55,538 nt of DNA. Source: Carbonactinospora thermoautotrophica (GTDB taxonomy: Bacteria; Actinomycetota; Actinomycetes; Streptomycetales; Carbonactinosporaceae). Below the pieces are notes generated by a model. That model ran no database searches and was not told the origin of the DNA. It was given only the letters and a program-made list of their open reading frames with translations. Both the position numbers and the translations under genes were made by a program. Shown here in pieces: positions 4,708 to 52,110 of this stretch. The stretch is from assembly GCF_001543895.1 (NCBI RefSeq), contig NZ_JYIJ01000008.1, forward strand, positions 1-55,538. The letters run 5' to 3'. Position 1 is the stretch's first letter, and the number at the start of each line of letters is the position of its first letter.

Positions 4708-4826
4708 ATCCTCGTTGCGCTGAGAATCAGGACAAGGGGTAGGGCCGCCACGGGGGAGTGGTAGCGACATGGCGGATGACCAGGAGCGGCTGCTGTTCGA
4801 GGAACCGGACCTGGACGGAGGCGAGG

Positions 4827-5213
4827 ATGAACCGTTACGGGGTGATGGCCAAGCAGCACTGGGAGCGGTGGCTGCCCCAGCGCTACCAGCAGATTCCGCC
4901 GGCGGAGCGGGAGAGCTTCTTCACCCGGCTGGGGGAGGAGGTCGAGGTCGAGATCGCGGAGTTGTGGCCGGAGCTGGCGGGGGAGGATCCGCCGGGGGAG
5001 AGCTACCAGGACAAGCAGGGCCGGTTGAACATGGCCCGCAAGCAGGCCGAGGAGAGGGTGCTGGCGGAGCGGGTGCTGCTGGCGCCGGAGACACCGGAGG
5101 TGCTGGAGGAGACGCCGGCGCCGGGCGGGGAGGAGATTCCGCTGGTCGCGCGGCCGGGCACGCCGGAGTGGGAGCGGATCGTGGCCGAGAAGGAGGCGCT
5201 GGGCCTGGAGTAG
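4827..5213 (+). CDS. TnpV-like small protein, coupled to the giant methylase-helicase gene
   Basis: 128 residues starting MNRYGVMAKQHWERWLPQRYQQI. The layout (short YG-x-M start, basic helix, acidic middle, then a KQGRLNMARKQAEERVL helix) resembles TnpV-type proteins found beside mobile-element helicases. The ATG at 4827 has GGAGGCGAGG just upstream. Its stop overlaps the GTG start of the 10.7-kb gene (TAGTG at 5211-5215), so the two are translationally coupled and probably act together. The reading frame of the giant gene is open across this whole stretch back to 4769, but there it translates as low-complexity Gly/Ala, typical of a shadow frame. Confidence 0.6.
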   Translation: MNRYGVMAKQHWERWLPQRYQQIPPAERESFFTRLGEEVEVEIAELWPELAGEDPPGESYQDKQGRLNMARKQAEERVLAERVLLAPETPEVLEETPAPGGEEIPLVARPGTPEWERIVAEKEALGLE

Positions 5214-8200
5214 TGCGCTTCCGTCCGCGTGGCCAGGACGATCTGGCCCCGTCGGGGCAGGTCGCCCGCGTGCGGGCCAACCTCGCCGCGCTGCGGACGC
5301 TGCGCACCCTGCAGGCGGAGAACCGACCGGCCACGCCGGGGGAGCAGGCGGTGCTGGCCCGCTGGTCGGGCTGGGGCGCGGTGCCGCAGGTCTTCGACGA
5401 GAGCAACGCCACCTTCGCCTGGGCGCGTGAGGAGCTGGGCCGGTTGCTCTCCCCGCGTGAGTACGCCGCCGCCCGGCGCAACACCCTCAACGCCCACTAC
5501 ACCGCCGCCGACCTGGTCCGGGCGATCTGGGACGGGGTAGCCCGGCTGGGGTTCACCGGCGGATCGGTGCTGGAGCCCGGCTGCGGGTCGGGGAACTTCA
5601 TCGGCTTCGCCCCGTCCACCGCCCGCGTGGTGGGGGTGGAGGTGGAGCCGGTCACCGCCGGCATCGCCGCCGCCCTGTACCCGGACGCGCAGATCATCTG
5701 CGAGTCCTTCGCCGACACCAAGGTCGCTGGGGGCGCGTTCGACCTGGTGATCGGCAACGTGCCCTTCGGGAAGGTCTCGCTCACCGACCGGGAGCACAAC
5801 CCGAACGGGCACTCCATCCACAACCACTTCATCCTCAAGGGCCTGCGCCTGCTACGCCCCGGCGGCCTGCTGGCGGTGCTCACCAGCTACTACACCCTGG
5901 ACGCCGCCGATTCGGCCGCCCGGCGGGAGATGGCCGCGTTGGCCGACCTGGTCGGCGCGGTCCGGCTGCCGAGCGAGGCTCACCGGGAGGCCGCTGGCAC
6001 CGACGCGGTGACCGACTTGATCATCCTGCGTCGGCGGGAGGAGGGTCGGCTGCCGGCGGACGGGGTCGCGTGGCAACAGGTGCGCACGGTCGACGTGCCC
6101 GGCGGCCAGATCCAGATCAACGAGTACTTCCTCGCCCACCCGGAGGCGGTCCTCGGCGAACTCGACATCGGGCGTGGCCTGTATCGGGCTGACGAGCTGG
6201 TGGTGCGTGCCACCGGGCCGGTTGCCCCGGCCCTGGCCGAGGCGCTGGAACAGGTGGTCGCCCGCGCCCGCGAGCGTGGCCTGACGTTGAGCCCGCGCCC
6301 GGCCGAGGTGCCCGAGCCGGTCGTGGTGCCGGCCGCCGACCGTGAGGCGGTCCCGGACGGCTTCCTGCAGGCCCACCCGGACGGCACCTTCACCCGGCGG
6401 GTCGGGGGCCGGCCCGAACCGTATGAGGTGCCGGCCAGCCAGGCCGAGGAGCTGCGCCGGCTGCTCGGCCTGCGCGACACCGTGCGTGCCCTGCTGGCGG
6501 CCGAGGCCGCCTCGGCGGAGGACACCCCGCAGATCGCGCGGCTGCGGGCGGAGCTGAACGCCCGCTACGACGCCTACGTCGCCCGCTTCGGGCCGATCAA
6601 CCGGTTCTCCTGGCGGCGCACCGGACGCCGGGACGAGGAGACCGGCGAGGAGAAGATGGCGCGGGTCCGCCCGCCGCAGGGCGGGTTCCGCACCGACCCG
6701 TTCGCGCCGACCGTCTACGCGCTGGACTCCTTCGACCCGATCACCGGAACCGCGGCCAAGGCCACGATCTTCACCCAGCGCGTCATCGCCCCGCGGGCGC
6801 CGCGTACCCGCGCCGAGACCCCCGCCGACGCCCTGGCCATTTGCCTGGACACCTACGGGGAGGTCCGCCTTCCTGAGATCGCCCGCTTGCTCGGCGTGGA
6901 CGAGTCCACCGCCCGGGAGCAGTTGGGCACGCTGGTCTTCGACGAGCCCGGCACCGGCCGGCTGGTGCCCCGCGCGGAGTACCTGAGCGGCAACGTCCGC
7001 GCCAAGCTGGCCGAGGCCCAAGCCTGGGCCGCTGTGGACTCCCGCTACGCCCCCAACGTCGACGCGCTCCGCGAGGTCATCCCGCCCGACCTGACCCCGG
7101 AGGAGATCACCGCCCGGCTGGGCGCGACCTGGATCGACGCGACCTACGTCGAGCAGTTCCTCCAGGAGATCCTGGAGGACCCCACCGTCGAGGTCGAGCA
7201 CCCGGGCGGCGCGGTGTGGACGGTCCGCGGCGGGCGCAACGGCGTGTTGGCCCGCGAGACGTGGGGCACCCCCCGGGTGCCGGCCCCGGCCCTGGCCCAG
7301 GCGCTGCTGGAACAGCGGCCGATCCGCGTCTACGACAAGCAGCCCGACGGCAGCCAGGTGTTCAACCCCGAGGCCACCGAGGCCGCCCAGGCCAAGGCCC
7401 AGGAACTGAACCAGCGGTTCAGCGAGTGGGTATGGGAGGACCCGCAACGGGCGGCGGAGCTGGCGCGGGTCTACAACGAACGGTTCAACGCGATCGTCCT
7501 GCGCACCTACGACGGCTCCGAGCTGTCGCTGCCCGGCCTGGCCGCCCACTTCACGCCGCGACCCCACCAGCGGGCGGCGGTGGCCCGGATCATCAACGAG
7601 CCGGCGGTCCTGCTGGCGCACGAGGTCGGCGCCGGCAAGACCGCGGAGATGGTCATGGGCGCGATGGAGCTGCGCCGGCTCGGCCTGGCCCGCAAGCCGG
7701 CGATCATCGTGCCCAACCACATGCTGGAGCAGGTCTCCCGCGAGTTCCTGGAGCTGTACCCGCAGGCCCGCATCCTGGTCGCTACCAAGGAGGACCTGAC
7801 CCGCGACCGGCGGCGGGAGTTCGTCGCCCGATGCGCGTCCGGCGACTGGGACGCGGTGGTGATGACCCACTCCTCGTTCGAGCGCATCGGCATGTCGAAG
7901 GAGGCCCAGGAGGCCTACCTGCGGCGGGAGATCAAAGCCTTCGAGGAGATGCTGGAGCGGTCCCGAGCAGACCGCGGGCTGACGGTCAAGCGGATGGAAG
8001 CCGCGCTGGCCCGGGCCGAGGAGTCGCTGAAGAAGAAGCTCGACAAGATCAAGGACGTCGGGGTCACGTTCGAGGCGACGGGCATCGACTACCTGTTCGT
8101 CGACGAGGCCCACCTGTTCAAGAACCTGCGCAACCCCTCCAACATCCCGGAGATGCAGATCGAGGGGTCCGGCCGCGCCAGCGACCTGGACATGAAGATC

Positions 8201-11200
8201 GACTACCTGCGGCGGCGCAACGGACGCCGGGTGGTCACCTTCGCCACGGCCACGCCGATCGCCAACTCCATGGCCGAGGCGTACGTGATGCAAAAGTACC
8301 TGCGCCCGGACCTGCTCGCCGACGCCGGCTTCGACTACTTCGACTCCTGGGCCGCGACGTTCGGCGAGATCGTCACCCAGATCGAGGTGGCCCCCGCGGG
8401 CGGGTTCCGCCTGCACTCGCGGTTCGCGAAGTTCAGCAACGTGCCCGAGCTGCTGCGCATGTTCCACGTCGTGGCGGACATCAAGACCGCCGACGATCTG
8501 AACCTGCCCCGCCCGGCCCTGGCCGGAGACGGCCCGGAAACGGTCGTGGTCGAACCGTCCCCGGAACTGCTGGAGTTCGTCGCCGAGCTGGGCCGGCGAG
8601 CCGAACAGGTGCGCGGCCGCCGCCCGCTGGCCGGCGACGACAACATGCTCAAGATCACAACCGAGGGTCGGCTGGCCGCCCTGGACCTGCGCCTGGTCGG
8701 GCGGGACAGCAGCACGCCGAGCAAGATCGACGTCGCCGCCGACAAGATCGCTGAGATCTGGGCCGCGCACCGCGACGACGTGTACCACGGCCCGGACGGG
8801 CAGCCCGAACCGATCCGCGGCTCCCTGCAGATCGTCTTCTGCGACCTGGGCACCCCCAAGGACGACAGCGACTGGAACGTCTACGACGAGCTACGCGACC
8901 AGCTCGTAGCCCGCGGCTTACCCCGAGAGTCGATCCGCTTCGTCCACGAGGCGAAGAACGACCGGGAGAAGGGCGAGCTGTTCGCCGCCTGCCGGGCCGG
9001 GCGGGTCGCGGTCCTGATCGGCTCCACCGAGCGGATGGGAGTCGGCACCAACGTCCAGCGCCGCGCGGTCGCTTTGCACCACCTGGACTGCCCGTGGCGG
9101 CCGGCGGATCTCGCCCAGCGCGACGGGCGCATCCTGCGCCAGGGCAACGCCAACCGTGAGGTCCGCATCATCCGCTACGTCACCGAACGGTCCTTCGACG
9201 CCTACCTGTGGCAGACCATCGAACGCAAGGCGCGGTTCATCAGCCAGGTCATGCGCGGCCGGCTGGACGTCCGTGAGATCGAGGACATCAGCGACACCGC
9301 GCTGGACGCCAACGTGGTCAAGGCGTTGGCCACCGGGGACCCGCTGGTGCTCGAACACGCCGAGGCCACCGAACAGGTCGCCCGCCTGGAACGGCTGGAA
9401 CGCGCCTGGCGGCGCTCCCAGGAATCACTGCGGTGGACTATCTCGTCCAACGAGGCCGAGGTCACCCGGCTTACCGCCGAGATCGAGGCGATCGACGCCG
9501 CGCTGGCCCGCCGCCAAGACACCCGCGGTGACGCCTTCGCCATGCGGCTGGAGGGGGCGACGTTCACCAAGCGCGCTGAGGCCGGTGAACGCCTCATCGC
9601 CATCATCACTCGCGAAACCGCCGGCGTGCTGGAACCGGGCACCAGCCGGGACCCCGTCGAGATCGGCAGCCTGGGCGGGTTCCCGGTGACCCTGACCGCC
9701 CGACGCACCACCGACGGCATCGTGGTCGCCGTCCTGCGCCTGGAAGGCGTGCCCGAAAGCGAAACGTGGTTCGAGCGGCGAGAGCTACGCGAGCTGGACC
9801 GGGTCGGCGCGATCCAACGCCTGGAGAACCGGCTGTTCGCCCTGGAGCGCCGCCGTACCCAGGCCCAGACGCGGATCGAGCAGCTCTGGGGGGAAACCCA
9901 ACGAGCCCAGCAGAACCTCGGCAAGCCCTTCGCCCAGGCCGAGCAGCTCGCCGCCGCCCGGGCACGCCTCCAACGGATCACCGAGGCAATGGGGAAACAA
10001 GCCAAACCGGAGGTCGGGCAGGCGGGCAATGCTGGCGACAGCGACCTGGTGGCGGCCGCGATCCACGACGCGGCAGCCATGGCCGGCATCGTGCCAGGCG
10101 CGCCAGGGGTCACGGTCCAGACCGGATCCGGGACGGTCAGCGACTTCCTGGAGGCCGTGTCCCAGGCCGCGTCCGCCAGCCAGAAAGAGGCTGACAGGCC
10201 TGCGGACGCCACGCCAGGCGAGCCGACACCCGGCCCGTACCGGAGCCGAGCAGAGTCACGCGCCGGCGAAGAGACGATCCGGCAGGCCTTCGAGCGCTGG
10301 CGCGAGCTCGTCCCCGACCCGGCGACACCGGCCGAACGGACCCTGGTCGAAACCGGCACCACGGTGCTCGAGGAGGCCGCCCGTCGCCGGCGAGAACGAC
10401 TCGCCCGCGGCCGGGACGAGGACGCCGACCTGGACGTGGGCCTGTACCGGGCGCTGCGCACCGCCGCCCACGCGCTGGCCCAGCAGGCAGACCAGCCGCA
10501 AGACCGGATCGACGCCGCCACCCGCATCGCCGAAGCCACCGACACCCACATCAAACGCACCGACGCGACCCTCGCCGACGTCGACAGCTACGTGCAGTGG
10601 GCGCGCAGCCCCGAACCTCCCCTGGATGCGCCGGCCAGCATCTTCGAGATCCCCGCGACGGCGCCGGCCACGCCGGCAAGGGACACAGACTCTGAGGTCA
10701 CGGACGCTTCTCGGCCCCAGGACACCACCGGCGTGGACGCCCCACACGCTGGTGAACCGACACCCGCAGGCGAGGCACTCGCCATCACCGACGCAGAGCA
10801 GAGCACCGAGCCACGGCCCGAATCGTCTGCCCCGACACCTGTGCAGGCCGCCCCCGAGCCGCCAGCCGCCGTGGTCGAGGAGCCCGACGCGGCCTCCCCG
10901 GCCCTGATCGAGGTCCACGTCGACGGGCGTACCTACCAGCTCCAGACCACCACGGACGGCACACGGCAGGTGGTCTTCGACGGCGAGACCGCGCTCGGCA
11001 GCGTGCGCGAAACCGACGACGGCTGGGTACCCGCCGCCTACGGCACGGTGCGCCTGCCTCAGCATCCGCGTCCCACCCGCGACGAGGCGGTCGCCGACCT
11101 CGTCCACGCCACCCGGCCCCAGGCGGCCGCCAGCCCGGCAGAGCAGCGGGAACGCATCATCGACCAGGCCGAGCGGGAGGACCCCAGGCCGCGCGAGGAG

Positions 11201-14200
11201 CAGCCGGCCGAACAGGAAACGCCGCAGGCCGAGCCTGATCCGCAGGATGCAGCACCGCTGATCGTCATCGAGCACCACCAGGACGGCACCCTCGTCCATG
11301 GCACGACCAGGAACGACATCGAGGTGCGCCGTGCCCTGGCCACCCACGGGTTCAAGTGGTCACGCCGGCTTAACGCCTGGTACCTGCCTCGGACATGGCG
11401 AGTGGACACCCGTGCCTGGCGTGTCGTCCAACTACGACGCGAACTGGACCGGCTCGGCCGCCAGTACACCGTGCAGACCGAACCCGCTGTGCCGGAGGCT
11501 CAGCCGAGCCGTGCGGCACCCGAGCCCCACCGTGCCAGCGCGGACCGCATCGACCAGCAGGCCGCCGCACCCCCGGACGAGCCGCAGGACCCAGCTTCAG
11601 CCGAGGCGACACGATCCGACGCGGTATCCGCCCCGGAACCGGAGCAGGCTGAGCCCGCCGAGCCGTACCGGTCCAGCGAGGACCTCCTCGCCGGCGAGGA
11701 TGCGGTACAGCAGTCGGTGTGGTTCTGGCAGCAGACCGCGACCGACCGTGCCCTGACCGCACCCGCGGACAGCCTCAGCCCAGAGGAGCGCATCAGCCCG
11801 TGGCGGCTGGAACGCGAAAAGCTCCATTCGAACTGGTCCTGGGTTGAGAGGTACATCTCCCCGGCGACTCGCGGCACTCACCGCGACCTGATCGGCTCCT
11901 ACACGCGGTTGGCCGCCTGCGCGGAGCGCCTGGCGCGGGCGGTCGACGAGGCGGACCGCTGGGTCGACCCGGCGGACCGGCAGATCCTGCACGCTGTGAT
12001 CGACCGGGCCCGGCAGCATGCGGCCCGCCTGCAGGCCACCATCGACCGCGCGGACGAGGTGGCCGCGCACCTGGCCGCTACCCGCGCCGCGGCCCGCGCA
12101 AAAGTCGCGGCCGAGTACGGGTACGAGGTCAGCCCAGCGCAGGAGCAGCCGCAGCTCGACGCACCAGGCCACGAGGACAGGACTCTGGAGCAGAACCAGC
12201 CCGAACACGAGCCCGATCACGGCACGCCGGCCAGCACACCGGCATCCGAGACCACCGAGGAGAACCGACAGGAGAGCCTGTTCGACCTGGAGTCGGGCTC
12301 AGAGCCGGCAACAGCCGACACGGCCCCAGCACAGCATGAGCAGCCGATCGATGCCGTCTCCGCCGAGCCCACGCCGGACGCGGGGGCCGACCTTTCTCCC
12401 GCTTCCGCCCCCGGCAACCACGACCAGGACCAGGCCGACGTCACGGTGCCCCAGGGCGGGGCTGCGGATGAACTACGAGCGGACCGGCTCGACATGGAGG
12501 AGCGGGCCACTACCGACGCCGGCGAGCGCTCCGCGCTCGATTCCGGCACGCCCGACTTTCCGAGCGAGGCTGACACGGGCCCGGCTGCTGAGGCCACCCC
12601 CGACGAGACGCCCCAGAGCAGGGATGCGGATGACCCGCAGCCGGCCCTCCTGAGCGGGCGCGGCTCGGAGGAGCAGCAGGCGGTGCCAGATCCCCCGCCA
12701 GGCCCGCTGACCGAGGCGGACATTCGCCACGTGTTGGGCCAGGTCATCAACCCCGACGACCTGGTGATGCTGGCGCAGGCCCTCGGTGACCGGGACGCGG
12801 AGCGCCGGTGGATCTCGGCCATGGCCGGCCGGTTGTTGGGATGGTACACGTGGCGCGGAGAGGATGAGCCCGACCCCGGGGCCCGGGAGGAGACCGAGAC
12901 CAGCCGGCGCGGTGTGCGCCACCGGGTCTACGCGTCGCCTGGCCCGCGGGAGGGGCTGATCCCGTGGACTGAGGTGGTCGCCCGCCTCCGTACCGGGCTC
13001 ACCAGGGATCGGATCCGCGCGCTGTTCGAGGCGCACATCGCCTACCTGGACCACCAGGACGACTGGGCCATGGCGCTCGAGGAGCCGGACGCCTGGACGC
13101 GCATCGACCGCCAGCTGGAGGCGGCGCGGTCCGAGGCCGCCCGCGCGATCCTCGACGCTTCGACGGCCCCACCGCCCGGGCGCCGGTCCAGGACATCCCC
13201 ACGATCGGCAGGCCCCGACGCCGAGACCCTGTTCGCCGACGAGAGCGAACCGGTGACGCTGCCGCCGCGCCCGCCGCGGCCACGCAAGGCGTTGCCACAG
13301 CTCCAGCCCGGCGACATCCTCCCCCACCCCGGGTACGGGTTCGGGCCGTTCACGGTCCGTCAGATCCACTGGCATCCCGACCACGTACGCCTCGAAGGAG
13401 ACGTCCGGTACGGCAGCACGCCGCCCTGGCACGTCCGCCCGCGGCGGGTGACGTTCAACATCCACTTCCAGGGTGATCCGCAGGAGACGACGGTCGAACT
13501 CGCTCCCGTCTCCCGCCGCCGTGCGGCCGAGCCCGTCCCTCAGACGACCGCTGCTCAGCTTGAAGCCGGGACCGAGGCCCAAGCCCAGGCCTCCCTCGCT
13601 GGTGAGGCCGCGCTGGATGATCCCACGCCGGGTCAGGACGTGGCCGAAGCTGAGGACGCCACCGTGCCCTCGCTCAACGGCCCGAGCAACGCCGAACGTG
13701 TGTCGGACGACGGAGCCGCACGGCCTGAGCACGCCCAGGACGACGAACGCGCCGACGCGGCTGTCCCGGCGCTGACCGAATCCGTACCCGAGCCGGAGCA
13801 AGGCGTCACCAGCACCGAGCCCGCCGCCGCGACGGCTTCCCCAGCGGAGGCTGCAACAGCCGAACCGTCCCCGCAGACGCCCGTGGAGTCGGACATGGAG
13901 CTGGAGCCGCAGACGACCGGCGAGGAGCTCGCGCCCGAGGTCAACGTCTCAGATGCGGTGCCCACCGAGGTCCGACTCCTGGAGATCGGGGACTGGATCC
14001 GAGACGATCGGGGCCGGGCGCGGCGCGTCGTCGACATCGAGGTCGGCGAGGCCCCGGGCGCGGGCATGGGCCTGTACCTGGAACCGAACGACGGCATCCC
14101 CACGCCGTGGTGGTTCTGGTCCAGCCGGGACCGCGTGCTCCGGCTCGCCCGGCCCCTGGATGAGGACGCGGTCGAACGCCCGGCGCAGCACGGCCTGGAG

Positions 14201-15928
14201 GCTCCTGTCAAGGTGCCCGCCCCCGGCGCCGACCAGGGTGAGGAGGTCACCGTCGGCGGGGATGAGCCCGACCGGCAAGACCAGGACGACCCGCTCGACC
14301 AGGCGTTCGCTGGCGTGGTCGCGGCATTGCGGGAGCACGCGGCACCACCAGCGGACGCGCAGGACCAGGACGCGCCGGCCGCGACCTTCGAGGAGGTCCT
14401 CGCCGCGCTGCGGAGGCTGCAGGGTGAACTCGCCAGCGCCGTCCCCGACCACGAGGCGGCGATCCCGGCTCAGAGCGCCACCGTGGCCACCGACCCGGGA
14501 ATGGCGCACGCCCTGCACGAGGTGGACGACGCCTACGACCAGGCGGCCTCCCAGATCGGGCGATACGTGGACGCCCCGGAGTGGCAGCGGATCCAGGCCA
14601 TTCGCGACGCGGCCCGGCACCTGTGGGCCACGATCCGCGACGCGGCGGGCAGCTACTACCGGGAGATCGCTGCCGACGTCCGGGTCCGCGGCTTCTACAC
14701 CACCGTGGCCGCCCGGTCCAGCCGGGCGATCTCCCACCTGGCGTGGCGGCTCGCGGCCCGGATGAGCCGCGACGGGCAGCGCGACACCCTGGCGTGGCGG
14801 GCCGTGCGGCGGCTGCACCACGCCGCCGACCGCTACGCCACACGGCTGCTGTTCCGCGCGGACCTGGACCGGTTCGAGGACGTGGTGGGCGCACTGCGCA
14901 GCCTGCGCGACGGCCTGCAGGAGACCGCGCCCCGCGCCGAGCCGGCGCGCAGCGGCCTCCGGGGCGCGGCCGGCGCGGTGGGGGACAGCCTGCGCCGTCT
15001 GCAGGACGCCTACACCACGGCACGCACGCGGATCACCGCGACCCTCGGCCCGGAGTGGGACCGCATCACGGCCCTGTGGCGGGAGGCCAGCGGCCTGTGG
15101 GACGCCGGCGGGCGTCCCTTCGCCCGGACGGTCCTGGCCCGGACCTGCGACCTGATTGAGGACCTGTCAGACGACATGGCGGCCAGCCTGGCGCTGAACA
15201 GGCAGCGCAACACCCGCACCTGGCGGGCGTTGATCCGGCTGAGCCGGGCGGCCGAGGACCTCGGCGCCCGGCTACGCGGATACCTCCAGCCGGGCAAATG
15301 GCTCGACCAGGACGCGGCGGAGACCGACCGCCAGGTGCAGCGCCCGGCCAACGCACTGGACCCGCACCCCCAGGCCCAGGCCGCCACGACGACCCCGGCC
15401 GGGGCCGAGCCGGCGGCCGACCAAGTGCCCCAGGTGTCCTACGTCTACGCCCACCAGGGGGTGACGGCACGCGCCCGGCACGGCAGCACCGTGGTACAGA
15501 TCGGGGACCAACACCACCCGGTCACCGCTCCCATCAACTCCCTCGACGCGTTCTCCACGCAGCTGGTGGCCGTGGTCCGCAACGCGCGGCCGGTCCAGCA
15601 GGAACCTCGCGCCTACTGGCTGCACTACCAGGCGGGATCGGTCACCGTCGCCTACCAGGGCGGGGAGACCGCGTACCTGCGCGACGGGAAGCACTCGCGG
15701 TGGCAGCGGATCACAGTCCCGATCACAGACCTGGACGCGGCCGCGTTCGCCGCCGCCGCCCGGGCGGCCATCGCCACACGCCCACACACCACAGGCGGCC
15801 TGATCCCGTACGGTGAGCCCGCACGGCCGGTCCTCCCCGCCCAAGCCCCCGCCCGTGCGGCTGCACCACCATCCCAGCCCATCCCGCCGGCGCGTCGGCC
15901 CGACCGAGGCTCCGCACTCGGCAGGTAG
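5213..15928 (+). CDS. Giant adenine-methyltransferase/SNF2-like helicase fusion (3571 aa)
   Basis: Domains in order: an N-terminal class I methyltransferase with SAM motif LEPGCGSGNF (about 119-130) and an NPPF-like NVPFG (about 182), the catalytic motif of N6-adenine methylases; two winged-helix-like linkers; an SF2/SNF2-type helicase with Walker A HEVGAGKTAEM (about 803), VDEAHLF (about 963), FATATPIANS and the C-terminal motif DLAQRDGRILRQGN (about 1299); coiled coil to about 1600; then 2000 residues of Pro/Glu/Ala linkers joining small domains. These include a DUF3560-like stretch (ATHGFKWSRRLNAWYLPR, about 2040-2070) and a tandem helical duplication (about 3102-3216 and 3265-3360). Methylase-helicase fusions of this type occur on plasmids, integrative elements and phage P1 (DarB, antirestriction). 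The GTG at 5213 is chosen because it overlaps the upstream stop. DNA protection during transfer is an inference. Confidence 0.9.
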   Translation: MRFRPRGQDDLAPSGQVARVRANLAALRTLRTLQAENRPATPGEQAVLARWSGWGAVPQVFDESNATFAWAREELGRLLSPREYAAARRNTLNAHYTAADLVRAIWDGVARLGFTGGSVLEPGCGSGNFIGFAPSTARVVGVEVEPVTAGIAAALYPDAQIICESFADTKVAGGAFDLVIGNVPFGKVSLTDREHNPNGHSIHNHFILKGLRLLRPGGLLAVLTSYYTLDAADSAARREMAALADLVGAVRLPSEAHREAAGTDAVTDLIILRRREEGRLPADGVAWQQVRTVDVPGGQIQINEYFLAHPEAVLGELDIGRGLYRADELVVRATGPVAPALAEALEQVVARARERGLTLSPRPAEVPEPVVVPAADREAVPDGFLQAHPDGTFTRRVGGRPEPYEVPASQAEELRRLLGLRDTVRALLAAEAASAEDTPQIARLRAELNARYDAYVARFGPINRFSWRRTGRRDEETGEEKMARVRPPQGGFRTDPFAPTVYALDSFDPITGTAAKATIFTQRVIAPRAPRTRAETPADALAICLDTYGEVRLPEIARLLGVDESTAREQLGTLVFDEPGTGRLVPRAEYLSGNVRAKLAEAQAWAAVDSRYAPNVDALREVIPPDLTPEEITARLGATWIDATYVEQFLQEILEDPTVEVEHPGGAVWTVRGGRNGVLARETWGTPRVPAPALAQALLEQRPIRVYDKQPDGSQVFNPEATEAAQAKAQELNQRFSEWVWEDPQRAAELARVYNERFNAIVLRTYDGSELSLPGLAAHFTPRPHQRAAVARIINEPAVLLAHEVGAGKTAEMVMGAMELRRLGLARKPAIIVPNHMLEQVSREFLELYPQARILVATKEDLTRDRRREFVARCASGDWDAVVMTHSSFERIGMSKEAQEAYLRREIKAFEEMLERSRADRGLTVKRMEAALARAEESLKKKLDKIKDVGVTFEATGIDYLFVDEAHLFKNLRNPSNIPEMQIEGSGRASDLDMKIDYLRRRNGRRVVTFATATPIANSMAEAYVMQKYLRPDLLADAGFDYFDSWAATFGEIVTQIEVAPAGGFRLHSRFAKFSNVPELLRMFHVVADIKTADDLNLPRPALAGDGPETVVVEPSPELLEFVAELGRRAEQVRGRRPLAGDDNMLKITTEGRLAALDLRLVGRDSSTPSKIDVAADKIAEIWAAHRDDVYHGPDGQPEPIRGSLQIVFCDLGTPKDDSDWNVYDELRDQLVARGLPRESIRFVHEAKNDREKGELFAACRAGRVAVLIGSTERMGVGTNVQRRAVALHHLDCPWRPADLAQRDGRILRQGNANREVRIIRYVTERSFDAYLWQTIERKARFISQVMRGRLDVREIEDISDTALDANVVKALATGDPLVLEHAEATEQVARLERLERAWRRSQESLRWTISSNEAEVTRLTAEIEAIDAALARRQDTRGDAFAMRLEGATFTKRAEAGERLIAIITRETAGVLEPGTSRDPVEIGSLGGFPVTLTARRTTDGIVVAVLRLEGVPESETWFERRELRELDRVGAIQRLENRLFALERRRTQAQTRIEQLWGETQRAQQNLGKPFAQAEQLAAARARLQRITEAMGKQAKPEVGQAGNAGDSDLVAAAIHDAAAMAGIVPGAPGVTVQTGSGTVSDFLEAVSQAASASQKEADRPADATPGEPTPGPYRSRAESRAGEETIRQAFERWRELVPDPATPAERTLVETGTTVLEEAARRRRERLARGRDEDADLDVGLYRALRTAAHALAQQADQPQDRIDAATRIAEATDTHIKRTDATLADVDSYVQWARSPEPPLDAPASIFEIPATAPATPARDTDSEVTDASRPQDTTGVDAPHAGEPTPAGEALAITDAEQSTEPRPESSAPTPVQAAPEPPAAVVEEPDAASPALIEVHVDGRTYQLQTTTDGTRQVVFDGETALGSVRETDDGWVPAAYGTVRLPQHPRPTRDEAVADLVHATRPQAAASPAEQRERIIDQAEREDPRPREEQPAEQETPQAEPDPQDAAPLIVIEHHQDGTLVHGTTRNDIEVRRALATHGFKWSRRLNAWYLPRTWRVDTRAWRVVQLRRELDRLGRQYTVQTEPAVPEAQPSRAAPEPHRASADRIDQQAAAPPDEPQDPASAEATRSDAVSAPEPEQAEPAEPYRSSEDLLAGEDAVQQSVWFWQQTATDRALTAPADSLSPEERISPWRLEREKLHSNWSWVERYISPATRGTHRDLIGSYTRLAACAERLARAVDEADRWVDPADRQILHAVIDRARQHAARLQATIDRADEVAAHLAATRAAARAKVAAEYGYEVSPAQEQPQLDAPGHEDRTLEQNQPEHEPDHGTPASTPASETTEENRQESLFDLESGSEPATADTAPAQHEQPIDAVSAEPTPDAGADLSPASAPGNHDQDQADVTVPQGGAADELRADRLDMEERATTDAGERSALDSGTPDFPSEADTGPAAEATPDETPQSRDADDPQPALLSGRGSEEQQAVPDPPPGPLTEADIRHVLGQVINPDDLVMLAQALGDRDAERRWISAMAGRLLGWYTWRGEDEPDPGAREETETSRRGVRHRVYASPGPREGLIPWTEVVARLRTGLTRDRIRALFEAHIAYLDHQDDWAMALEEPDAWTRIDRQLEAARSEAARAILDASTAPPPGRRSRTSPRSAGPDAETLFADESEPVTLPPRPPRPRKALPQLQPGDILPHPGYGFGPFTVRQIHWHPDHVRLEGDVRYGSTPPWHVRPRRVTFNIHFQGDPQETTVELAPVSRRRAAEPVPQTTAAQLEAGTEAQAQASLAGEAALDDPTPGQDVAEAEDATVPSLNGPSNAERVSDDGAARPEHAQDDERADAAVPALTESVPEPEQGVTSTEPAAATASPAEAATAEPSPQTPVESDMELEPQTTGEELAPEVNVSDAVPTEVRLLEIGDWIRDDRGRARRVVDIEVGEAPGAGMGLYLEPNDGIPTPWWFWSSRDRVLRLARPLDEDAVERPAQHGLEAPVKVPAPGADQGEEVTVGGDEPDRQDQDDPLDQAFAGVVAALREHAAPPADAQDQDAPAATFEEVLAALRRLQGELASAVPDHEAAIPAQSATVATDPGMAHALHEVDDAYDQAASQIGRYVDAPEWQRIQAIRDAARHLWATIRDAAGSYYREIAADVRVRGFYTTVAARSSRAISHLAWRLAARMSRDGQRDTLAWRAVRRLHHAADRYATRLLFRADLDRFEDVVGALRSLRDGLQETAPRAEPARSGLRGAAGAVGDSLRRLQDAYTTARTRITATLGPEWDRITALWREASGLWDAGGRPFARTVLARTCDLIEDLSDDMAASLALNRQRNTRTWRALIRLSRAAEDLGARLRGYLQPGKWLDQDAAETDRQVQRPANALDPHPQAQAATTTPAGAEPAADQVPQVSYVYAHQGVTARARHGSTVVQIGDQHHPVTAPINSLDAFSTQLVAVVRNARPVQQEPRAYWLHYQAGSVTVAYQGGETAYLRDGKHSRWQRITVPITDLDAAAFAAAARAAIATRPHTTGGLIPYGEPARPVLPAQAPARAAAPPSQPIPPARRPDRGSALGR
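12269..12283 (+). other. QESLF, candidate sliding-clamp binding motif inside the giant protein
   Basis: Codons 2353-2357 encode Q-E-S-L-F in an acidic disordered linker (NRQESLFDLESG). This fits the bacterial beta-clamp binding consensus QxxLF / Q-L-[SD]-L-F. The match is short, so chance cannot be excluded. Confidence 0.35.
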
Positions 15929-33992: not shown

Positions 33993-34075
33993 CGGCGGCG
34001 CCGGGACTCGCCCTCCCGGGCCGCCTACGAGATCCCAACCCGTTCACATGCGCCTGCGAAAGGACGGAATCTCGC

Positions 34076-34258
34076 ATGCCCAGCGTACGCACCGCCACCA
34101 GCACCGAGACCACCCCGGATGGCAAGCGGCGGGAAACCACCGTCGCCCTCGCCGCGGCCGGCCGGACCGGCCGGTTCCTCATCGGGCGGATCACCGGCAC
34201 CCGCCGGGATGAGCTGACCGCCGTCGCGGATGCCGCCGGCGTGCTGCGCCAGGGGTGA
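34076..34258 (+). CDS. Small hypothetical protein
   Basis: 60 residues with AAGGACGG before the ATG: MPSVRTATSTETTPDGKRRETTVALAAAGRTGRFLIGRITG followed by a short helix. It may form a small beta-sheet domain. Unknown function. Its stop overlaps the GTG of a 44-codon gene. Confidence 0.5.
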   Translation: MPSVRTATSTETTPDGKRRETTVALAAAGRTGRFLIGRITGTRRDELTAVADAAGVLRQG

Positions 34259-34389
34259 CCGCCGTGGCACTGCTGGCGAAAGTCGCAGGGCTGCTGAAAC
34301 CCAAGTGCGGCACCTGCGGCGGCACCGGTGATATGCAGACCGGCCTGACGGTCCGCATGTGCCTGACTTGCGGCGGCAACGGCTCCTAG
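34255..34389 (+). CDS. 44-residue DnaJ-type CxxCGGxG zinc mini-protein
   Basis: Starts at a GTG overlapping the preceding stop (GTGA). The product has two CxxCGGxG modules, KCGTCGGTG and MCLTCGGNGS, the motif of the DnaJ zinc domain, separated by a short beta-like stretch. With exactly four cysteines it could bind one zinc. It is the last gene before the operon terminator. Confidence 0.6.
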   Translation: MTAVALLAKVAGLLKPKCGTCGGTGDMQTGLTVRMCLTCGGNGS

Positions 34390-34398
34390 CAGCACTTT

Positions 34399-34436
34399 CG
34401 AAGGCCCCCCGGTCCGCCCGGACCGGGGGGCCTTCG
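34399..34436 (+). terminator. Strong terminator of the spd-tra operon
   Basis: 17-bp perfect stem CGAAGGCCCCCCGGTCC / GGACCGGGGGGCCTTCG around GCCC, ten bases after the last stop codon. Confidence 0.85.
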
Positions 34437-34447
34437 CATGCCCGGCG

Positions 34448-34540
34448 TGGTCACCAGCCCGGACCCCAAATATATTTCTTTTCTTTTCAAATCTTTTCTT
34501 TTCTTTTTCTTTCTTTTCTTCTTTGGGTAGGGTGGCGGCC
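34448..34540 (+). promoter_or_regulatory. Promoter and pyrimidine-rich leader
   Basis: TGGTCA (34448-34453) and TATATT (34471-34476) are separated by 17 bp. From about 34477 to 34525 the plus strand is nearly pure pyrimidine (TTTTCTT repeats), ending in GGGTAGGG as a ribosome site before the ATG at 34541. The base composition is extreme for this plasmid. Confidence 0.65.
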
Positions 34541-35624
34541 ATGACGGAGACTCCTCAGAGCGGCACCGGCGCCGAGGAGGCGCCGCGGGTGTGCAAGCGG
34601 CCGGGGTGCTCGAACCTGGTGCCGGCGCGGGAGCCGGGGCAGCGCGGCCGGCCGCCGGTGTTCTGTTCGCCGGAGTGTGCGACGCGGTACCACAACGCCC
34701 GCCGCTACGCCGAGCCGCAGCCGGGCGGGCCGGGTGAGTCCGCCGGGCCGGGCGGGCGGGAGGAGCCGCAGGCGCAGGATCCGCTGACCCAGCTGACCCG
34801 GATCGCCCGCCAGCTGGGGCCGCTGGTGCAGCAGGTGGTCGCGCAGTACCAGCAGGTGGCCCCGGACACCGTGCGCGCCCAACTGGCCACCGCCGAGGCC
34901 GAGCGCCGCCGCGCGGAGGCCCGCGCGGCCGACGCGGAGGCCCGCGCGGAGCAGGCGGAGGAGGAGGCGGCCGCGGCGTGGGAGGCCGCCGACGCCGCCC
35001 GGGAGGCCCAGCAGGCCGCCGAGCGCGCCGCCGAGCAGGCCCGCGCCGAGGCCGAGGCCGAGGTCGTGCGGGTCCGCGAGCAGGCCCAGGCCGCCGGCCG
35101 CGGAGCGGGAGCGCGCCGAACGGGCCGAGGCCGCCGCGGCCGCGGCCGCCGCGGAGGCCGAGCAGGCCCGGGCCGAGCTCGCCGCGGAGCGGGAGCGGGC
35201 CGAGCGCGCCATCGCCGCCGCCCAGGCCGACGCCGAGGCCCAGATCACCACCGAACGGGCCGCCGCCGAGCAGCGGGTCCGCGACGCCGAGGCCCGCGCC
35301 CGCGAGGCCGAGGCCACCGCCCAGATCCGGATCCAGGCCGAGCAGGACAAGGCCGCCGCCGCCCGCGCCGCCGCCCAGGAGGTGCACGACGCGCTCACCC
35401 GCCAGCTGGAGGCCCTGCGCCGCGACCTGGACGCCGAACGCCACCGCGCTGAGCAGCTCGCCGGGCACCTAGAGCGCGCCAACACCCGCGCCCAAGCCCT
35501 GGAGGACCGACTCGACGCCCTACGCCGCGACCTGGACACCGAACGCGCCGCCCGCGCCGCCGCCGAACGCGACCGCGACCAGCTACGCCGCCAGCTCCAC
35601 CAGCCAGGCCAGCACGAGGACTAG
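34541..35624 (+). pseudogene. Zinc-finger/coiled-coil protein gene with a +1 frameshift
   Basis: Residues 15-55 form a zinc finger (CKRPGCSNLVPAREPGQRGRPPVFCSPECATRYHNARR). The rest is a long Ala/Glu/Arg coiled coil. The first frame is coherent from 34541 to about 35095 (REQAQAAG) and then turns into Gly/Arg noise. The coiled coil continues perfectly in the frame one base later from about 35100 (AERERAERAEAAAAAA... EVHDALTRQLEALRRDLDAERHRAEQL) to the stop at 35624. Corrected, the product is about 360 residues. The shift lies in a very GC-rich CCGGCCGCGG stretch, so a sequencing or assembly indel is as likely as a true mutation. Similar zinc-finger coiled-coil proteins occur on actinobacterial conjugative plasmids. 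Confidence 0.7.
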
Positions 35625-36063
35625 CACGAGGAGCACCGAGAGGAGCAGCGCTGACCCGCACCACCCCACGCGAGCCCCGGGCCACATGGCCTCCCCGTAG
35701 CTTCCAGCAAAAACAACGAGAACGCTGGTCAGAGCTCGGTGGAGGGTCTTCGAGCGCAGCCTGAAGGGGGCCGCTGACCTGCGTTGACTTTGTTTCTTGC
35801 GGCAGAACTACCGGGACCTTGAGCGAGAGCGTCTGTGTCTCCAGCAAAGCGAACCGCTCGTGATCAAGAGCGCCTTCAATCTTCTGGGCTGAGCGGACGA
35901 TCTATGCCCTCGACGCACGCAACGGCGCCAGCGGGTGCCGCTCAACACCCGGCGCGGCCGACATATCGCAAACAGTCTGAGAAGGCGCGACTCTTTTACG
36001 CGGCTTCTGACCGAGAGGTCAGGGCGCGATCATTTCGGATGTTGCGGTATCACGCCTGTGGGC
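35625..36063. other. Gene-free interval before the Gabija-like genes
   Basis: About 440 bp of lower GC with no convincing ORF, tRNA or terminator. The genes on either side converge here. Confidence 0.4.
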
Positions 36064-37728
36064 TCAGATGATGTCGATGGGGAAGGGCTTGGAGTAGCGG
36101 GTGAAAGGCGCGACGAGGGGGTGAGGCTGCGGGGGAAGGAGGATAACGACGATGTTGCGTGCGCGGGTCATAGACACGTACAGGATTCGTGAGGCCTCGT
36201 CGTAGGGCTCGCAGGCGCCGCGCCCGTACCAGTCGTTGGAGGTGTAGGAGAGTATGGTCGCGTCGGCTTCCCGGCCCTTGGTCTGGCTGAAGTTCATCAG
36301 CTGAATGTGTCCGGTGTCCCCACCGTCGAGTTCGACGAAGCTCGCGTCGCGCGCGGCGGCGACGGCACGTTCGAGTTGACCGAGTGGGTCGACGACGTGA
36401 AGCCGTGCACGGGCGGCGAGTGCGGTGAAGGCACGGCTGGCTCGGTTCCATGTCCGTCGTCCGGAAGTGAAGCCGAGAACGTTCCACGCCTGGGTGGCCG
36501 TGACGACCGCCTCCTCAAGCGGTTCGGCAGCTTCATCGAGACCCAACTTGATTTTGGTGAGCCGGTCTACCAGGGCATTGGGCAGGTGGAGGCCGGCGTG
36601 CAACGCCCACGCGAGGTCCGGCGGCTTGCTGCCCCGGTGGTTCGCGGTAAGTACGGTCGCTAGTCCGGTGAGCACCTCGGACCAATCAGCCACGCCTGCG
36701 CTGTAGCGCACCATGGTGAGGAGCGCGGCGAGGGTCTCACCGTAGGCTTCCGAGAAGCCAACGGGGACGTGGTCGACGCCGCGGTCTGTGAGAGCGGCGG
36801 ACAGTCCAGCCGCGTCGCTGTTCGTCTTCGCGTACACGCCGATGGTGGTGTGACCGTCGGCCTGAAGACGGCGGATCTCAGCGTCGATGACGGCGGCGCG
36901 CTCGGCGTCGGTATCCGGGACGTCCCGGTAGACGAGAAGCCGGCCGGCGTCGACGGCGGCACGTACGGCCGGTGTGGTGAAGCGCCGCCAGCGGATGTCG
37001 GCGGCAGCGTTGGGCAGGACCTGGGTGGGGTCGCGATAGGAGCCCTGCTGGAGGGTGACCTCGACGCATCCGGGGCGTGCGCGGGCGGCGTCAAGCCGTG
37101 CCTCGCTGACCCCATCTTTGAACTGGTAGATCATCTGGTTGGGGTCGGCGAGCAGCAGCAGCCGGGCGTTTCTCCCTAGTGCCTGTAGTAGCCGCCACTC
37201 CTCCTCGTCGGTGTCTTGGAACTCGTCGCAGATGACCAACGACCAGCGGGAACGTATCAGGCTGGCGATGGGGCCGGGGGTTTCCAGCAGCGTCAGAGCG
37301 CGCGGCAGGAGGTCGCTGTAGGTGAGCGTGTAGTCGGTGGGACTGGGGGTTGCGAGCTTGGTGCGGGCCTCTCCGCGCAAGACGGGAACTCCTGGGAGCC
37401 CGGTGTAGCGACCGAAGGCACACAACAGTCGGAAGGCCAGGCCGTGGAAGGTGAGGATCTCCACCGCATCTTCCATGCCCGTGAGGACATTCCCGGCGCG
37501 GGACCGGATCTGCGCGACGGCCGTACGCGAGAACGTGACGAAGAGGACCCGGCGGCCGGGCAGCGGCTTGCTGCTGGTGCCATGGGCGGTGAGCTCACGG
37601 CGAGCGGCCCACAAGGCGGTGGTGGTCTTGCCGACGCCAGCGCCCCCGAACACTAGCATCGTCGGTGCGGTGGCGTCGGCGACCTGCCGCTGCTCGGCGG
37701 TCAGCTGCTCGAACGTCACGCCGCTCAC
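36064..37728 (-). CDS. UvrD/Rep-like helicase, Gabija GajB-like
   Basis: 554 residues from a GTG at 37728 (VSGVTFEQLTAEQRQVAD); the frame extends upstream to 37881 but that part overlaps the nuclease gene and looks like shadow. SF1 helicase motifs: Q-motif-like start, Walker A GGAGVGKTTT (about 26-33), TFHGLAFRLL, Walker B CDEFQDTDE (about 165), motif III LLADPNQMIYQF, motif V-like SQTKGREADATILSY and motif VI YVSMTRAR (about 519). Together with the upstream OLD-family nuclease it forms a Gabija-type pair. In characterised Gabija, GajB senses or processes single-stranded DNA ends and activates GajA. Start uncertain. Confidence 0.8.
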   Translation of the reverse strand: MSGVTFEQLTAEQRQVADATAPTMLVFGGAGVGKTTTALWAARRELTAHGTSSKPLPGRRVLFVTFSRTAVAQIRSRAGNVLTGMEDAVEILTFHGLAFRLLCAFGRYTGLPGVPVLRGEARTKLATPSPTDYTLTYSDLLPRALTLLETPGPIASLIRSRWSLVICDEFQDTDEEEWRLLQALGRNARLLLLADPNQMIYQFKDGVSEARLDAARARPGCVEVTLQQGSYRDPTQVLPNAAADIRWRRFTTPAVRAAVDAGRLLVYRDVPDTDAERAAVIDAEIRRLQADGHTTIGVYAKTNSDAAGLSAALTDRGVDHVPVGFSEAYGETLAALLTMVRYSAGVADWSEVLTGLATVLTANHRGSKPPDLAWALHAGLHLPNALVDRLTKIKLGLDEAAEPLEEAVVTATQAWNVLGFTSGRRTWNRASRAFTALAARARLHVVDPLGQLERAVAAARDASFVELDGGDTGHIQLMNFSQTKGREADATILSYTSNDWYGRGACEPYDEASRILYVSMTRARNIVVILLPPQPHPLVAPFTRYSKPFPIDII

Positions 37729-37777
37729 CGCGAACCGTCCGGATGCGCCGGGGTACGGAGCGGGTTGAGTGGCTGGT

Positions 37778-39520
37778 TCACAGCTGGACCACCGACTCGT
37801 CTCGGATGCCGCGGGCGCAGTCGACCGCAGCGGCCAGAGCCTTGGCGGCAAGGCTAGGCAAGACTCCCTGCGGGAGCGCATCCACGAACTGGGCGTGCAG
37901 TCCGTTGTTGCTCTTCAACGCCTTCACGGCGTGCTTGCGCAGGGTGTCGCCTGTGGCGTGCTGCCAGCCGGCTGGCAATGGAAGCGAGTACGACGCGTTC
38001 AGGGTAGTCAGCGTGGAGACCACGTCCGTGTCAGGCACTCCATCGAGCAGGGCGTGTTCGATCGCGTACCCGCGAGGGAGCCGCACGACGGCGTGCGCTG
38101 CCTCTTGCGCGGCCGCCAGTCGCTTCTCCGCCTGTTCCTCGTCCTTGTCGTAGTCGATCATGGCGACGACACGGAAGCCGAGGTCACGAGCTAACGCCGC
38201 GATATGCGGCACCTTGCCGATGCCGCCCTCGTCACCCGCGTCGATCAGCCGGATCCCGTACGCCTCCGGTGGCGATACTCCCTGTTCGGTGTCCAGACGC
38301 TCTGCGAGCGCCGCGTAGGCGGCCGGATCATGCTTTCCTTCGGTGACGATTAAGGCCCGCGCCGTCATGGCCGGCAGCAGTTGTCGGTGTAGCTCCTGGG
38401 CCGCCACCCGCTCGGCCCGAGACATCGGCGGCTTCCCGTAGTAGACCTGTCGACGAGGCGTTCCACCGGCGGGATTACGGGTCAGACGCACGAGATCGCC
38501 GATCTCGAAACTGCGCGCGACCTCCGGACGGCGAGTGGACAACCACACTTGCCCGGCCCCTCGGCGAAGCAGGGTGGCCAGCCGTTGCCCGCTAGTGGCA
38601 TCGAGCATGTCACCGAAGTCGTCGACCGCGACTACAGCGCCGTTGACCTTGGCTGCGGCGAGTGCTTCGGCCGCTGCCACCTGCGCGGTGGTCGTCGACC
38701 CGTGCCGCGCCAGCGGCAGGTGAGGGGCCGAGTCAGCGAGATCGAGCGCGGCGGTGAGGTTGCGCAACAACCCGGACAGAGATCCCTCATCTGGCAGGAA
38801 ACGTACAACTTCAGTGGCCGGTGCGGAGATCCTGAGGCGGTCGCGGATCGGACGCAGCACCGTCTCCAAGCCGTCCAGCACTACTGGTGTCTGCGACAGC
38901 TCCGCTGACAGGTCGATGATTCCCTCGATCATCCGGCGCAGCGCTTTGCTCACCTCGGCCGGCCGCTCGGCGTCCAGCAGCGCCCGGAAGTCGCCGCGTG
39001 GGGCCAGGTTGAGCGGGCGCCCCCCAGCCAGCGCGATGAACGGCAACACGGCGCGGTCGGCGCGAGCAACCCGCCGCAGGTCGTCAGTATCCGGATCAGA
39101 GGACTTGGCCCAGTAGAGGACCTGCTCGCCGCGCTCCTCATCACGGTCCCACCTGCCCCGGTAGGCCAGCCGCACCACGGGCACGGCATCCGCGGGCAGC
39201 TTGGACGGATCGTCGCTGCCCTCGATTAGGGTCGCCGAGGCCGGGGACCAGAACTCCAACTGATCAAGGAAACGTTGTTGCAGCTGGCCCAGATCCCCCA
39301 GTGTCACCTCGATATGGATATCCCGACTCGTGTCACCGCCGTGGAAGTCGAACTCCTCCAGGACACGGGACGCGTCGAAATTCAGCACCCGCGCCAGAGC
39401 GGTGAGCAGATCGGTTCGTCCAGCCCGTGGCTCCCCCACGAGCAGGACATGACCACGAGGCACAACCTCGACCTGATCGAAGCCGCGAAAGTGCTCGATA
39501 ACACAACGCAGCACCCGCAT
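37778..39520 (-). CDS. OLD-family ATPase-TOPRIM nuclease, Gabija GajA-like
   Basis: 580 residues, close to the usual GajA length. It starts MRVLRCVIEHFRGFDQVEVVPRGHVLLVGEPRAGRTD, the RecF/OLD type ABC-ATPase N-terminus, but the P-loop reads GEPRAGRT: the usual Lys is Arg (residue 35). A Walker B-like VVAVDDFGDML lies near 296. The C-terminal TOPRIM domain has the acidic residues in ALIVTEGKHDPAAYAAL (about 397) and VVAMIDYDKDEEQ (about 455), needed for metal-dependent DNA cleavage. It is first in the operon and ends about 50 bases before the helicase start. GCGGAG precedes the ATG. The predicted role is anti-phage nuclease. The altered P-loop may mean weak or absent ATP hydrolysis. Confidence 0.82.
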   Translation of the reverse strand: MRVLRCVIEHFRGFDQVEVVPRGHVLLVGEPRAGRTDLLTALARVLNFDASRVLEEFDFHGGDTSRDIHIEVTLGDLGQLQQRFLDQLEFWSPASATLIEGSDDPSKLPADAVPVVRLAYRGRWDRDEERGEQVLYWAKSSDPDTDDLRRVARADRAVLPFIALAGGRPLNLAPRGDFRALLDAERPAEVSKALRRMIEGIIDLSAELSQTPVVLDGLETVLRPIRDRLRISAPATEVVRFLPDEGSLSGLLRNLTAALDLADSAPHLPLARHGSTTTAQVAAAEALAAAKVNGAVVAVDDFGDMLDATSGQRLATLLRRGAGQVWLSTRRPEVARSFEIGDLVRLTRNPAGGTPRRQVYYGKPPMSRAERVAAQELHRQLLPAMTARALIVTEGKHDPAAYAALAERLDTEQGVSPPEAYGIRLIDAGDEGGIGKVPHIAALARDLGFRVVAMIDYDKDEEQAEKRLAAAQEAAHAVVRLPRGYAIEHALLDGVPDTDVVSTLTTLNASYSLPLPAGWQHATGDTLRKHAVKALKSNNGLHAQFVDALPQGVLPSLAAKALAAAVDCARGIRDESVVQL

Positions 39521-39637
39521 CGTTTTCTCCGCTCACACGACCGGTCGGGGTTCGCGGCTCGCCGAGGGCGAAGGCCGAACACTCCCGGTGATGTTGCCAC
39601 ATGATCGCTCCCGGGGGTCGGCTTTGCGGAAAGGTGA

Positions 39638-39796
39638 TCAGCGGCGGCGGCGATCGCTGCGGCGTTGCCCGGGGTGGGGCCGGTCGGCACGAAGCCGTCC
39701 CGGTACGGGGAGGGCCAGGTATTGGCGTACTTCGACGCCGTGGTCGAGGTGCCGGTCGACCAGGAGGACGCGCAGCAGGCCCGGGGGAGGGGGTGA
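39638..39796 (+). pseudogene. Possible gene remnant (3' end only)
   Basis: Frame reading AAIAAALPGVGPVGTKPSRYGEGQ then VLAYFDAVVEVPVDQEDAQQARGRG and a stop. The composition looks like a real protein end, but an in-frame stop at 39635 precedes it and the only possible start is the TTG at 39665. Low confidence. Confidence 0.3.
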
Positions 39797-40062
39797 CGAG
39801 ACCCCGCTGCGCGCACTGGAGGCCTCCGGCCGGTGGGGTTGCCTGATGAACGCCCGCTCCACCTGGGCCCGTACCGGCCGCTGGCTGCCTCTATGCGGCG
39901 GCCACCGCACCTGCGCCCGACGCTCTGGCCGCGCTGGAGGTCCTGCGCCGGTTGAGCGCGCCCCGCCGCTGAGTGACATCCCGCCTCGTGGTGTCTCGCA
40001 CAACCGGAAGGCCCCCGATCCCGGGGCCTGTCCGTTGCCGCTGGGTTGTTCTCCCGTTGGCC

Positions 40063-40180
40063 GCCGTATACGGCGCCATTGCCTCCTGGCCCGTCGTCGT
40101 GGTAGGGGGCGCCGGCTGCCGCGCCGCTTCCGGTCCTTGGGCGCTGCGCGCCCTGCGGTCCGGGTCGGCTTGCCCCCGAG
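40063..40180 (+). repeat. Dispersed inverted repeat, copy B (118 bp)
   Basis: Matches the reverse complement of 21498-21617, starting at the palindrome GCCGTATACGGC (40063-40074) and ending near TGCCCCCGAG. It lies between the Gabija-like operon and the mobilisation genes. Confidence 0.7.
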
Positions 40181-40292
40181 GATCCGCGGTTGCTCGAGGA
40201 GCGGCGGAGCGAGGCCCCGGACCGATTGGAGACCTTTCGTTGCCGTCACCGGATAGTCCCGTCGGATGCTCAGCCTGGCGGAGCAAGATATT

Positions 40293-40400
40293 CGATCAGC
40301 TAAGCTGATCGCCCTTTGGGGCTGGCCTGGAGGTTGTTCTCCCGCGCACACTGGCGTGTGTGTCCCCCGCCTGGCGGGGGTCGCTCCGCTGGGAAGGGGG
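40293..40400 (+). other. Candidate origin of transfer (oriT)
   Basis: Three nested inverted repeats lie directly before mobC and the relaxase gene: CGATCAGCT-A-AGCTGATCG (40293-40311), CACAC-TGGC-GTGTG near 40348-40361, and CCCCCGCC-T-GGCGGGGG near 40364-40380. oriT sites of relaxase systems are normally intergenic, next to mobC/mobA and rich in such repeats. No nic sequence could be identified by eye. Confidence 0.5.
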
Positions 40401-40408
40401 ATGTCCCG

Positions 40409-42282: not shown

Positions 42283-42310
42283 CTGGCAGGTTCACGGGGA
42301 GGGATGACGG

Positions 42311-43930: not shown

Positions 43931-43941
43931 ACGCGGCCGCG
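43919..43941. terminator. Terminator hairpin overlapping the stop codon
   Basis: CGCGGCCGC (43919-43927) pairs with GCGGCCGCG (43933-43941) around TGAAC, which contains the stop TGA. It separates the mobilisation operon from the convergent minus-strand genes. Confidence 0.6.
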
Positions 43942-44020
43942 CCCGGGACCCCTGGCCTGAGCTGAATTCCGTCTGATCGCAGGCCTGCTCAGGCGGCGGC
44001 TATGACGATCATTGACGCTC

Positions 44021-44833: not shown

Positions 44834-44893
44834 GATCAAAGCGTATGGATATACCCTGCGGCTCGATAGAGCCGGCGCCGTTCCTAGCCGCCG

Positions 44894-48586: not shown

Positions 48587-48601
48587 GGTGGTACCCCCTT
48601 G

Positions 48602-52099: not shown

Positions 52100-52110
52100 C
52101 GCCGATCCCC

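Follow-up and report, generated by a model that had tools for sequence, protein, structure and literature searches.

A giant DarB-like protein of an actinobacterial conjugative plasmid with a shuffled tail and a recurrent T4SS-linked C-terminal helical domain

The dyad of an LPD36-methylase and an SNF2 helicase was described among the “polyvalent proteins” by Iyer et al. 2017, and that paper already reports actinomycete giants of up to 12,242 aa (PMC5512222). The prototype, DarB of phage P1, is carried by the virion and acts in cis to protect the injected DNA (PMC5512222). Conjugation systems also carry plasmid proteins across (PMC11288057). In Bartonella and the alphaproteobacteria, BID is a C-terminal helical domain with a positive tail whose genes are linked to T4SS; T4SS passengers typically have basic C-termini, and BID domains work also with foreign type IV coupling proteins (T4CPs) (PMC6509941).

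The window, by which we mean the whole stretch of DNA analysed here, comprises 55,538 nucleotides of Carbonactinospora thermoautotrophica (NZ_JYIJ01000008.1), whose genome has 5.13 Mb in 19 contigs. The ends of the contig overlap exactly over 114 bp, so the plasmid is a circle of 55,424 bp. One gene at 5213-15928 (+) takes up 19% of this plasmid and runs as one open frame of 3,571 codons with zero internal stops, so the single 3,571-residue frame and the “fifth of the plasmid” given in the preliminary description are both borne out. The gene is also marked by its coding bias, which is strong at the third codon position (GC1/GC2/GC3 = 0.76/0.53/0.88, calculated on the 3,719-codon frame that an alternative in-frame ATG at 4769 would open). 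The stop of the preceding ORF (TAG) and the GTG start at 5213 overlap in TAGTG (window 5211-5215), suggesting translational coupling of the giant with the upstream 151-aa gene. A second plasmid contig in the same genome (C9, 100,465 bp) contains a 3,181-codon relative at C9:39176-48721 (locus L007, C9 contig 34000-53999). The chain of small domains was earlier called unusually long, which does not hold, since the protein's relatives exceed 7,000 codons (7,347 in one frame for the longest) and the literature goes further still. Stops in independent sequences had also been named as an outcome that would speak against the description: both copies in the host genome are intact, while some relatives are broken (one TAA in G004, a broken frame in L056, two stops in G138). 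Stops or frame breaks interrupt the giant's relatives in L054, L056 and L062. On some elements, then, the gene is open to decay.

The first ~1,600 residues are a DarB-like methylase plus SNF2 helicase in the textbook arrangement. The PHROG DarB-like antirestriction profile matches residues 9-1795 with 1,491 bits, which confirms the methylase-helicase front noticed earlier. An LPD36-like N-terminus, in which WSGWGA is the GXGU motif, and an N6-adenine-type methylase are located at 5237-6262 (+), as assigned by PHROG/Pfam and by a motif alignment of 27 family members. In this alignment GWGA (residues 53-56) is conserved, methylase motif I (VLEPGCGSGNF, residues 119-129) is intact, and motif IV is NVPFG (residues 182-186), that is, NVPF and not NPPF/Y in the window, the C9 copy and the great majority of the listed relatives. 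The TP motif position reads TA in the window protein. C-terminal to the methylase lies the SNF2/SF2 helicase (7550-9532, +), with intact motifs GAGKT, DEAH, TATP and QRDGRILRQ in the motif alignment and matches to Pfam SNF2/ResIII (SNF2-rel_dom above cut-off). The helicase motifs of the C9 giant are degenerate, with SGTMMTN for TATP and QAEGR for QRxGR, so its motor may be impaired although the protein is otherwise intact. Of 72,556 plasmid records, 1,279 contain the DarB-like core, 671 of these being typed conjugative; it also occurs in 80 phage records.

Besides the giant, the plasmid carries genes for a VirD4-type T4CP (45348-47117, -; Pfam TraG-D_C 96 bits, and homologues), a DUF4913 protein directly after it (44897-45451, -; Pfam 106 bits), a VirB4-like ATPase (47081-48586, -; 40% identity to a Streptosporangium T4SS ATPase), a SCO6880-family T4SS protein (48602-50098, -; NCBIfam NF042935, 568 bits), a MobA/VirD2-type relaxase (40816-42282, +; Pfam Relaxase) and an SLT-NlpC/P60 wall hydrolase. 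As predicted from these matches, they are a full actinobacterial conjugation set. Homology gives good support for classing the giant, encoded by a conjugative actinobacterial plasmid, with the DarB-like polyvalent proteins, and together with the plasmid's conjugation genes it also supports well a probable antirestriction role; the placement in the DarB-type family of plasmids and integrative elements in the preliminary description thus stands. A Gabija-like pair is located at window 36064-39520 (-), consisting of a GajB UvrD-type helicase (best PADLOC 168 bits) and a GajA OLD-TOPRIM nuclease (132 bits), so anti-phage defence accompanies the antirestriction-type giant on this plasmid.

The window protein shares with the LPD36-methylase-SNF2 polyvalent proteins the N-terminal GXGU domain, the methylase and the SNF2 helicase, and it is likewise a multi-domain single polypeptide on a conjugative element (PMC5512222). 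The front, the size and the kind of protein are therefore known, and the new part is the tail, namely its T4SS-linked C-terminal module and its shuffling between unrelated cores, which sets it apart from the described proteins. Neither the helical tandem with basic tail nor a module resembling the XPB damage-recognition domain matches a Pfam model, and we found no description of them in the part of PMC5512222 available to us.

The C-terminal helical tandem domain (CTD) consists of repeat 1 (residues 3103-3209, 14519-14839, +) and repeat 2 (residues 3262-3349, 14996-15259, +). Repeat 1 is defined by an alignment of 21 homologues, and its HMM finds repeat 2 at 9e-18, in agreement with the tandem helical duplication seen at first. 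The predicted model is all-helical with four helices per repeat and has high confidence in repeat 1 (AF2 pLDDT up to 97). The domain had no match in Pfam or in PDB sequences, 23 homologous tails gave no consistent Pfam match, and the fold search returned only generic helical bundles (designed bundles, 14-3-3 and similar), none of them informative. Homologues were found in Streptomycetales and on one Streptosporangium plasmid, in two settings: at the C-terminus of DarB-like giants or in small separate proteins. In nearly all giants carrying it, the stop follows 72-211 aa after the end of repeat 1; the exceptions are the window and C9 proteins, which have an added beta module, and G011, whose end is longer. 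The standalone CTD proteins (~280-800 codons) are encoded immediately downstream of SCO6880-VirB4-T4CP, as a rule with a single small DUF4913-like gene separating them from the T4CP gene, although the DUF4913 match of the small Streptomyces partner gene is weak. Purifying selection acts on these standalone genes (NG86 omega 0.32-0.38), and none of the 7 plasmids with a standalone CTD protein has a methylase-helicase core. By alignment and gene order, the helical tandem is a newly recognised recurrent domain tied to T4SS operons. Three Streptomyces plasmids (L066, L067, L069) also have FxLD lanthipeptide clusters, which begin within a few kb on the downstream side of the small T4SS-linked genes. 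On pSMg1-2 (Streptomyces sp. Mg1, L071 14419-17997), a 1,192-aa NUDIX protein encoded close to the T4SS ends in the terminal helical module that the neighbouring T4SS-linked protein, like the other standalone ones, also bears, which makes it a candidate further T4SS passenger.

Behind the CTD, the window protein ends in a basic tail (15836-15925, +) with net charge +4 in the last 30 residues, of low confidence and disordered-like in the model. The last 30 residues are basic in 38 of 39 CTD carriers, with a mean of +3.6 versus +0.2 in 361 control genes. The CTD thus has the traits of the BID type, i.e. a C-terminal place, a basic tail and a T4SS-linked gene, and it is also similar in its helical unit of about 100 aa and in being carried by several kinds of protein (PMC6509941). 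It differs from BID in phylum and has no sequence match (Pfam/PDB) and no fold match to it. BID folds as an antiparallel four-helix bundle with a hook, beside which the model of the CTD offers its four helices per repeat and only generic bundle matches. Membership in the BID family by sequence was rejected, as the 23 homologous tails had no consistent Pfam match and no PDB sequence match; BID is also absent from the fold-search lists for the helical domain, an absence which excludes nothing. We therefore call the CTD BID-like in the sense of analogy and do not claim homology.

To describe the gene neighbourhood, we summarized the 28 records with upstream DNA; in 21 of these the gene preceding the CTD gene is that of the T4CP or of its partner (DUF4913/h171). 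These 21 loci comprise 11 small standalone genes and 10 giants (seven Catenulispora-type loci, G011, L065 and L088), whereas 0 of 13 methylase-helicase genes lacking the CTD have such a neighbour, a count which leaves out L050, whose sequence runs off the contig before the tail is reached. The loci are phylogenetically related and the records not independent, so these counts give no clean statistic; several T4SS lineages are represented, with T4CPs about 25-35% identical. The window giant itself is not adjacent to the T4CP of its plasmid. Strict coevolution of the helical domain with the T4CP was rejected, because the domains are near-identical on the two resident plasmids while the T4CPs are 42% identical, and the grouping of CTDs into clades does not follow the T4SS types. 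In the helical domain the window and C9 proteins are nearest neighbours, 89% identical in repeat 1; set against the divergence of the T4CPs, this suggests that the partner of the CTD may not be the plasmid's own T4CP.

We place about even trust in the following reading, which builds on gene linkage and on analogy: the giant would be an antirestriction or establishment protein that is docked to the conjugation channel, and possibly sent through it, by its BID-like C-terminal module. The front would methylate adenine in the plasmid DNA while the SNF2 motor moves along the duplex, and the plasmid would thereby survive restriction when entering a new host. By analogy with phage P1 DarB (PMC5512222), methylase and motor would mark the plasmid DNA on entry, and the domain at residues 2008-2106 may help the motor to read DNA structure. 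The helical tandem with its basic tail would dock the giant at the plasmid's T4CP, where it would be held at the conjugation channel and may pass through with the DNA, like a BID domain with positive tail. Methylation, protection and the role of the 2008-2106 domain are what we infer; docking is suggested by gene linkage only, and delivery would lie one step further. Against delivery, a protein of ~390 kDa, with relatives twice as large, is difficult cargo for a T4SS. NVPF in motif IV and TA in place of the TP motif also speak against the reading, and the methylase activity is a putative one. More broadly, and only as a tentative suggestion, the helical domain with basic tail may be an undescribed portable T4SS signal of actinobacterial conjugative plasmids, carried by giants, by small adaptors and partly by NUDIX effectors, so that such plasmids would inject their own DNA-protecting enzyme together with the DNA.

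Linkage of the CTD to T4CP genes would also fit if the domain held the giant at the T4CP of the donor, where the DNA would be modified or remodelled before or during transfer and the strand would arrive methylated while the protein stays. The great size of the giants speaks for such a donor-side tether, and the standalone CTD proteins, which have no enzyme and occupy the same operon slot, resemble parts of the apparatus. However, P1 DarB, the closest characterised protein, acts on the injected DNA in cis and arrives in the virion (PMC5512222), and basic C-termini typify T4SS passengers (PMC6509941). We consider the tether rather doubtful.

The domain at residues 2008-2106 (11234-11530, +) is known from 13 distinct sequences, the window's included, and was defined by alignments and a model (AF2 pLDDT 80) whose predicted fold resembles the XPB damage-recognition/HARP type. 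Archaeal XPB damage-recognition domains lead both the Foldseek list (prob 1.00, E 0.015) and the VIA list (Z 6.6, 2.1 A over 58 residues), where a Z below 8 is no proof. T4 UvsW also occurs in the VIA list (Z 5.6), and phage HepA/SMARCA-like proteins appear in the viral fold list. The identity to the XPB domain is only ~14%, and the window's domain lies after the helicase, not before it. The preliminary description saw a DUF3560-like piece here by sequence resemblance. Such a piece exists and recurs in relatives, and the model of a viral DUF3560 protein aligns to it (2.2 A over 53 columns, E 0.11); the Pfam DUF3560 model, however, matches none of the 12 members searched, and the fold is closest to the XPB domain. 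As the fold scores are moderate, we call the domain XPB-damage-recognition/HARP-like and regard it as a putative member only.

Comparison with the C9 giant revealed how the tail is composed. The cores of the two giants are ~40% identical and the tail modules 70-89%; near residue 1680 the nucleotide identity rises from about 45-60% to 85-93% and the amino acid identity from 25-40% to 75-90%. The core tree rejects grouping the window and C9 copies together (delta lnL 852, p-AU 1.4e-9): the window core is placed near a Micromonospora plasmid, whereas that of C9 falls close to genomes of family f3 in the order, read as Catenulispora-like. For the two cores dN/dS was saturated and therefore unused. 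Different core clades with shared tail modules indicate that tail modules were exchanged between unrelated methylase-helicases, and by these comparisons the tail is a mosaic of modules.

The shared region starts with a helical PYRS-type module (residues 1680-1800, 10250-10612, +), and a second one follows at residues 2149-2310 (11657-12142, +). They were taken as repeats at first, and as copies of each other they were rejected (hhalign only 10%); both have remote kinship to a single helical module found in relatives (hhalign probability 62% and 81%, respectively), namely the one with which the standalone T4SS-linked proteins end. The WHPD/YGSTPPWH module (residues 2690-2755, 13280-13477, +) and the WWFW module (residues 2900-2972, 13910-14128, +) are present as described, the former elsewhere only in the C9 copy and the latter in the window only. 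The C-terminal beta-containing module (residues 3395-3520, 15395-15772, +) is common to the C9 copy only (78% identity); the pair of beta domains once proposed there is consistent with a predicted model of low to medium confidence. No tail module was found elsewhere in the host genome beyond the C9 copy, and Pfam, PHROGs and PADLOC had no reliable match past about residue 1800. The tail, described at first as uncharacterised, is a mosaic with at least one recurrent T4SS-tied domain and not simply filler.

The modules shared by the two giants track the shared plasmid backbone (window 19.7-33.1 kb versus C9 6.6-18.1 kb, 70-100% protein identity), not the T4SS, whose proteins are 37-42% identical between the plasmids. 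As judged from these blocks, the two co-resident plasmids are of mixed ancestry. Together with the predicted likeness of the 2008-2106 domain to a DNA-binding accessory fold, this would suit a tail made up of a string of modules that bind DNA or the host and are unrelated to secretion, its proximity to T4SS genes reflecting a general clustering of backbone genes. We regard such a chain as unlikely, since the CTD has a specific neighbourhood: in several T4SS lineages its gene comes right after T4CP/DUF4913, and in none of the 13 cores without CTD is this so. That the giant is instead a defence- or restriction-type factor guarding the resident plasmid or host from phage is very improbable: the Gabija pair on the same plasmid and weak partial matches to BrxHI, DrmD and mad2 speak for it, but these matches reach only 41-45 bits against family cut-offs of 610-1,100, far from the DarB-like PHROG score, and no partner genes of BREX, DISARM or MADS are seen beside the giant, so membership in these systems was rejected.

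In conclusion, whether and how giant polyvalent proteins of plasmids reach a new host becomes a directly testable question in actinobacteria through a T4CP-linked module of 110-250 residues. If the CTD is a delivery tag, as in the reading of a docked and possibly delivered giant, it would explain how incoming single-stranded DNA is immediately protected from restriction, and would offer a way to predict which plasmid proteins get injected. Besides, the mosaic tail indicates that such a module can move between unrelated enzyme cores.
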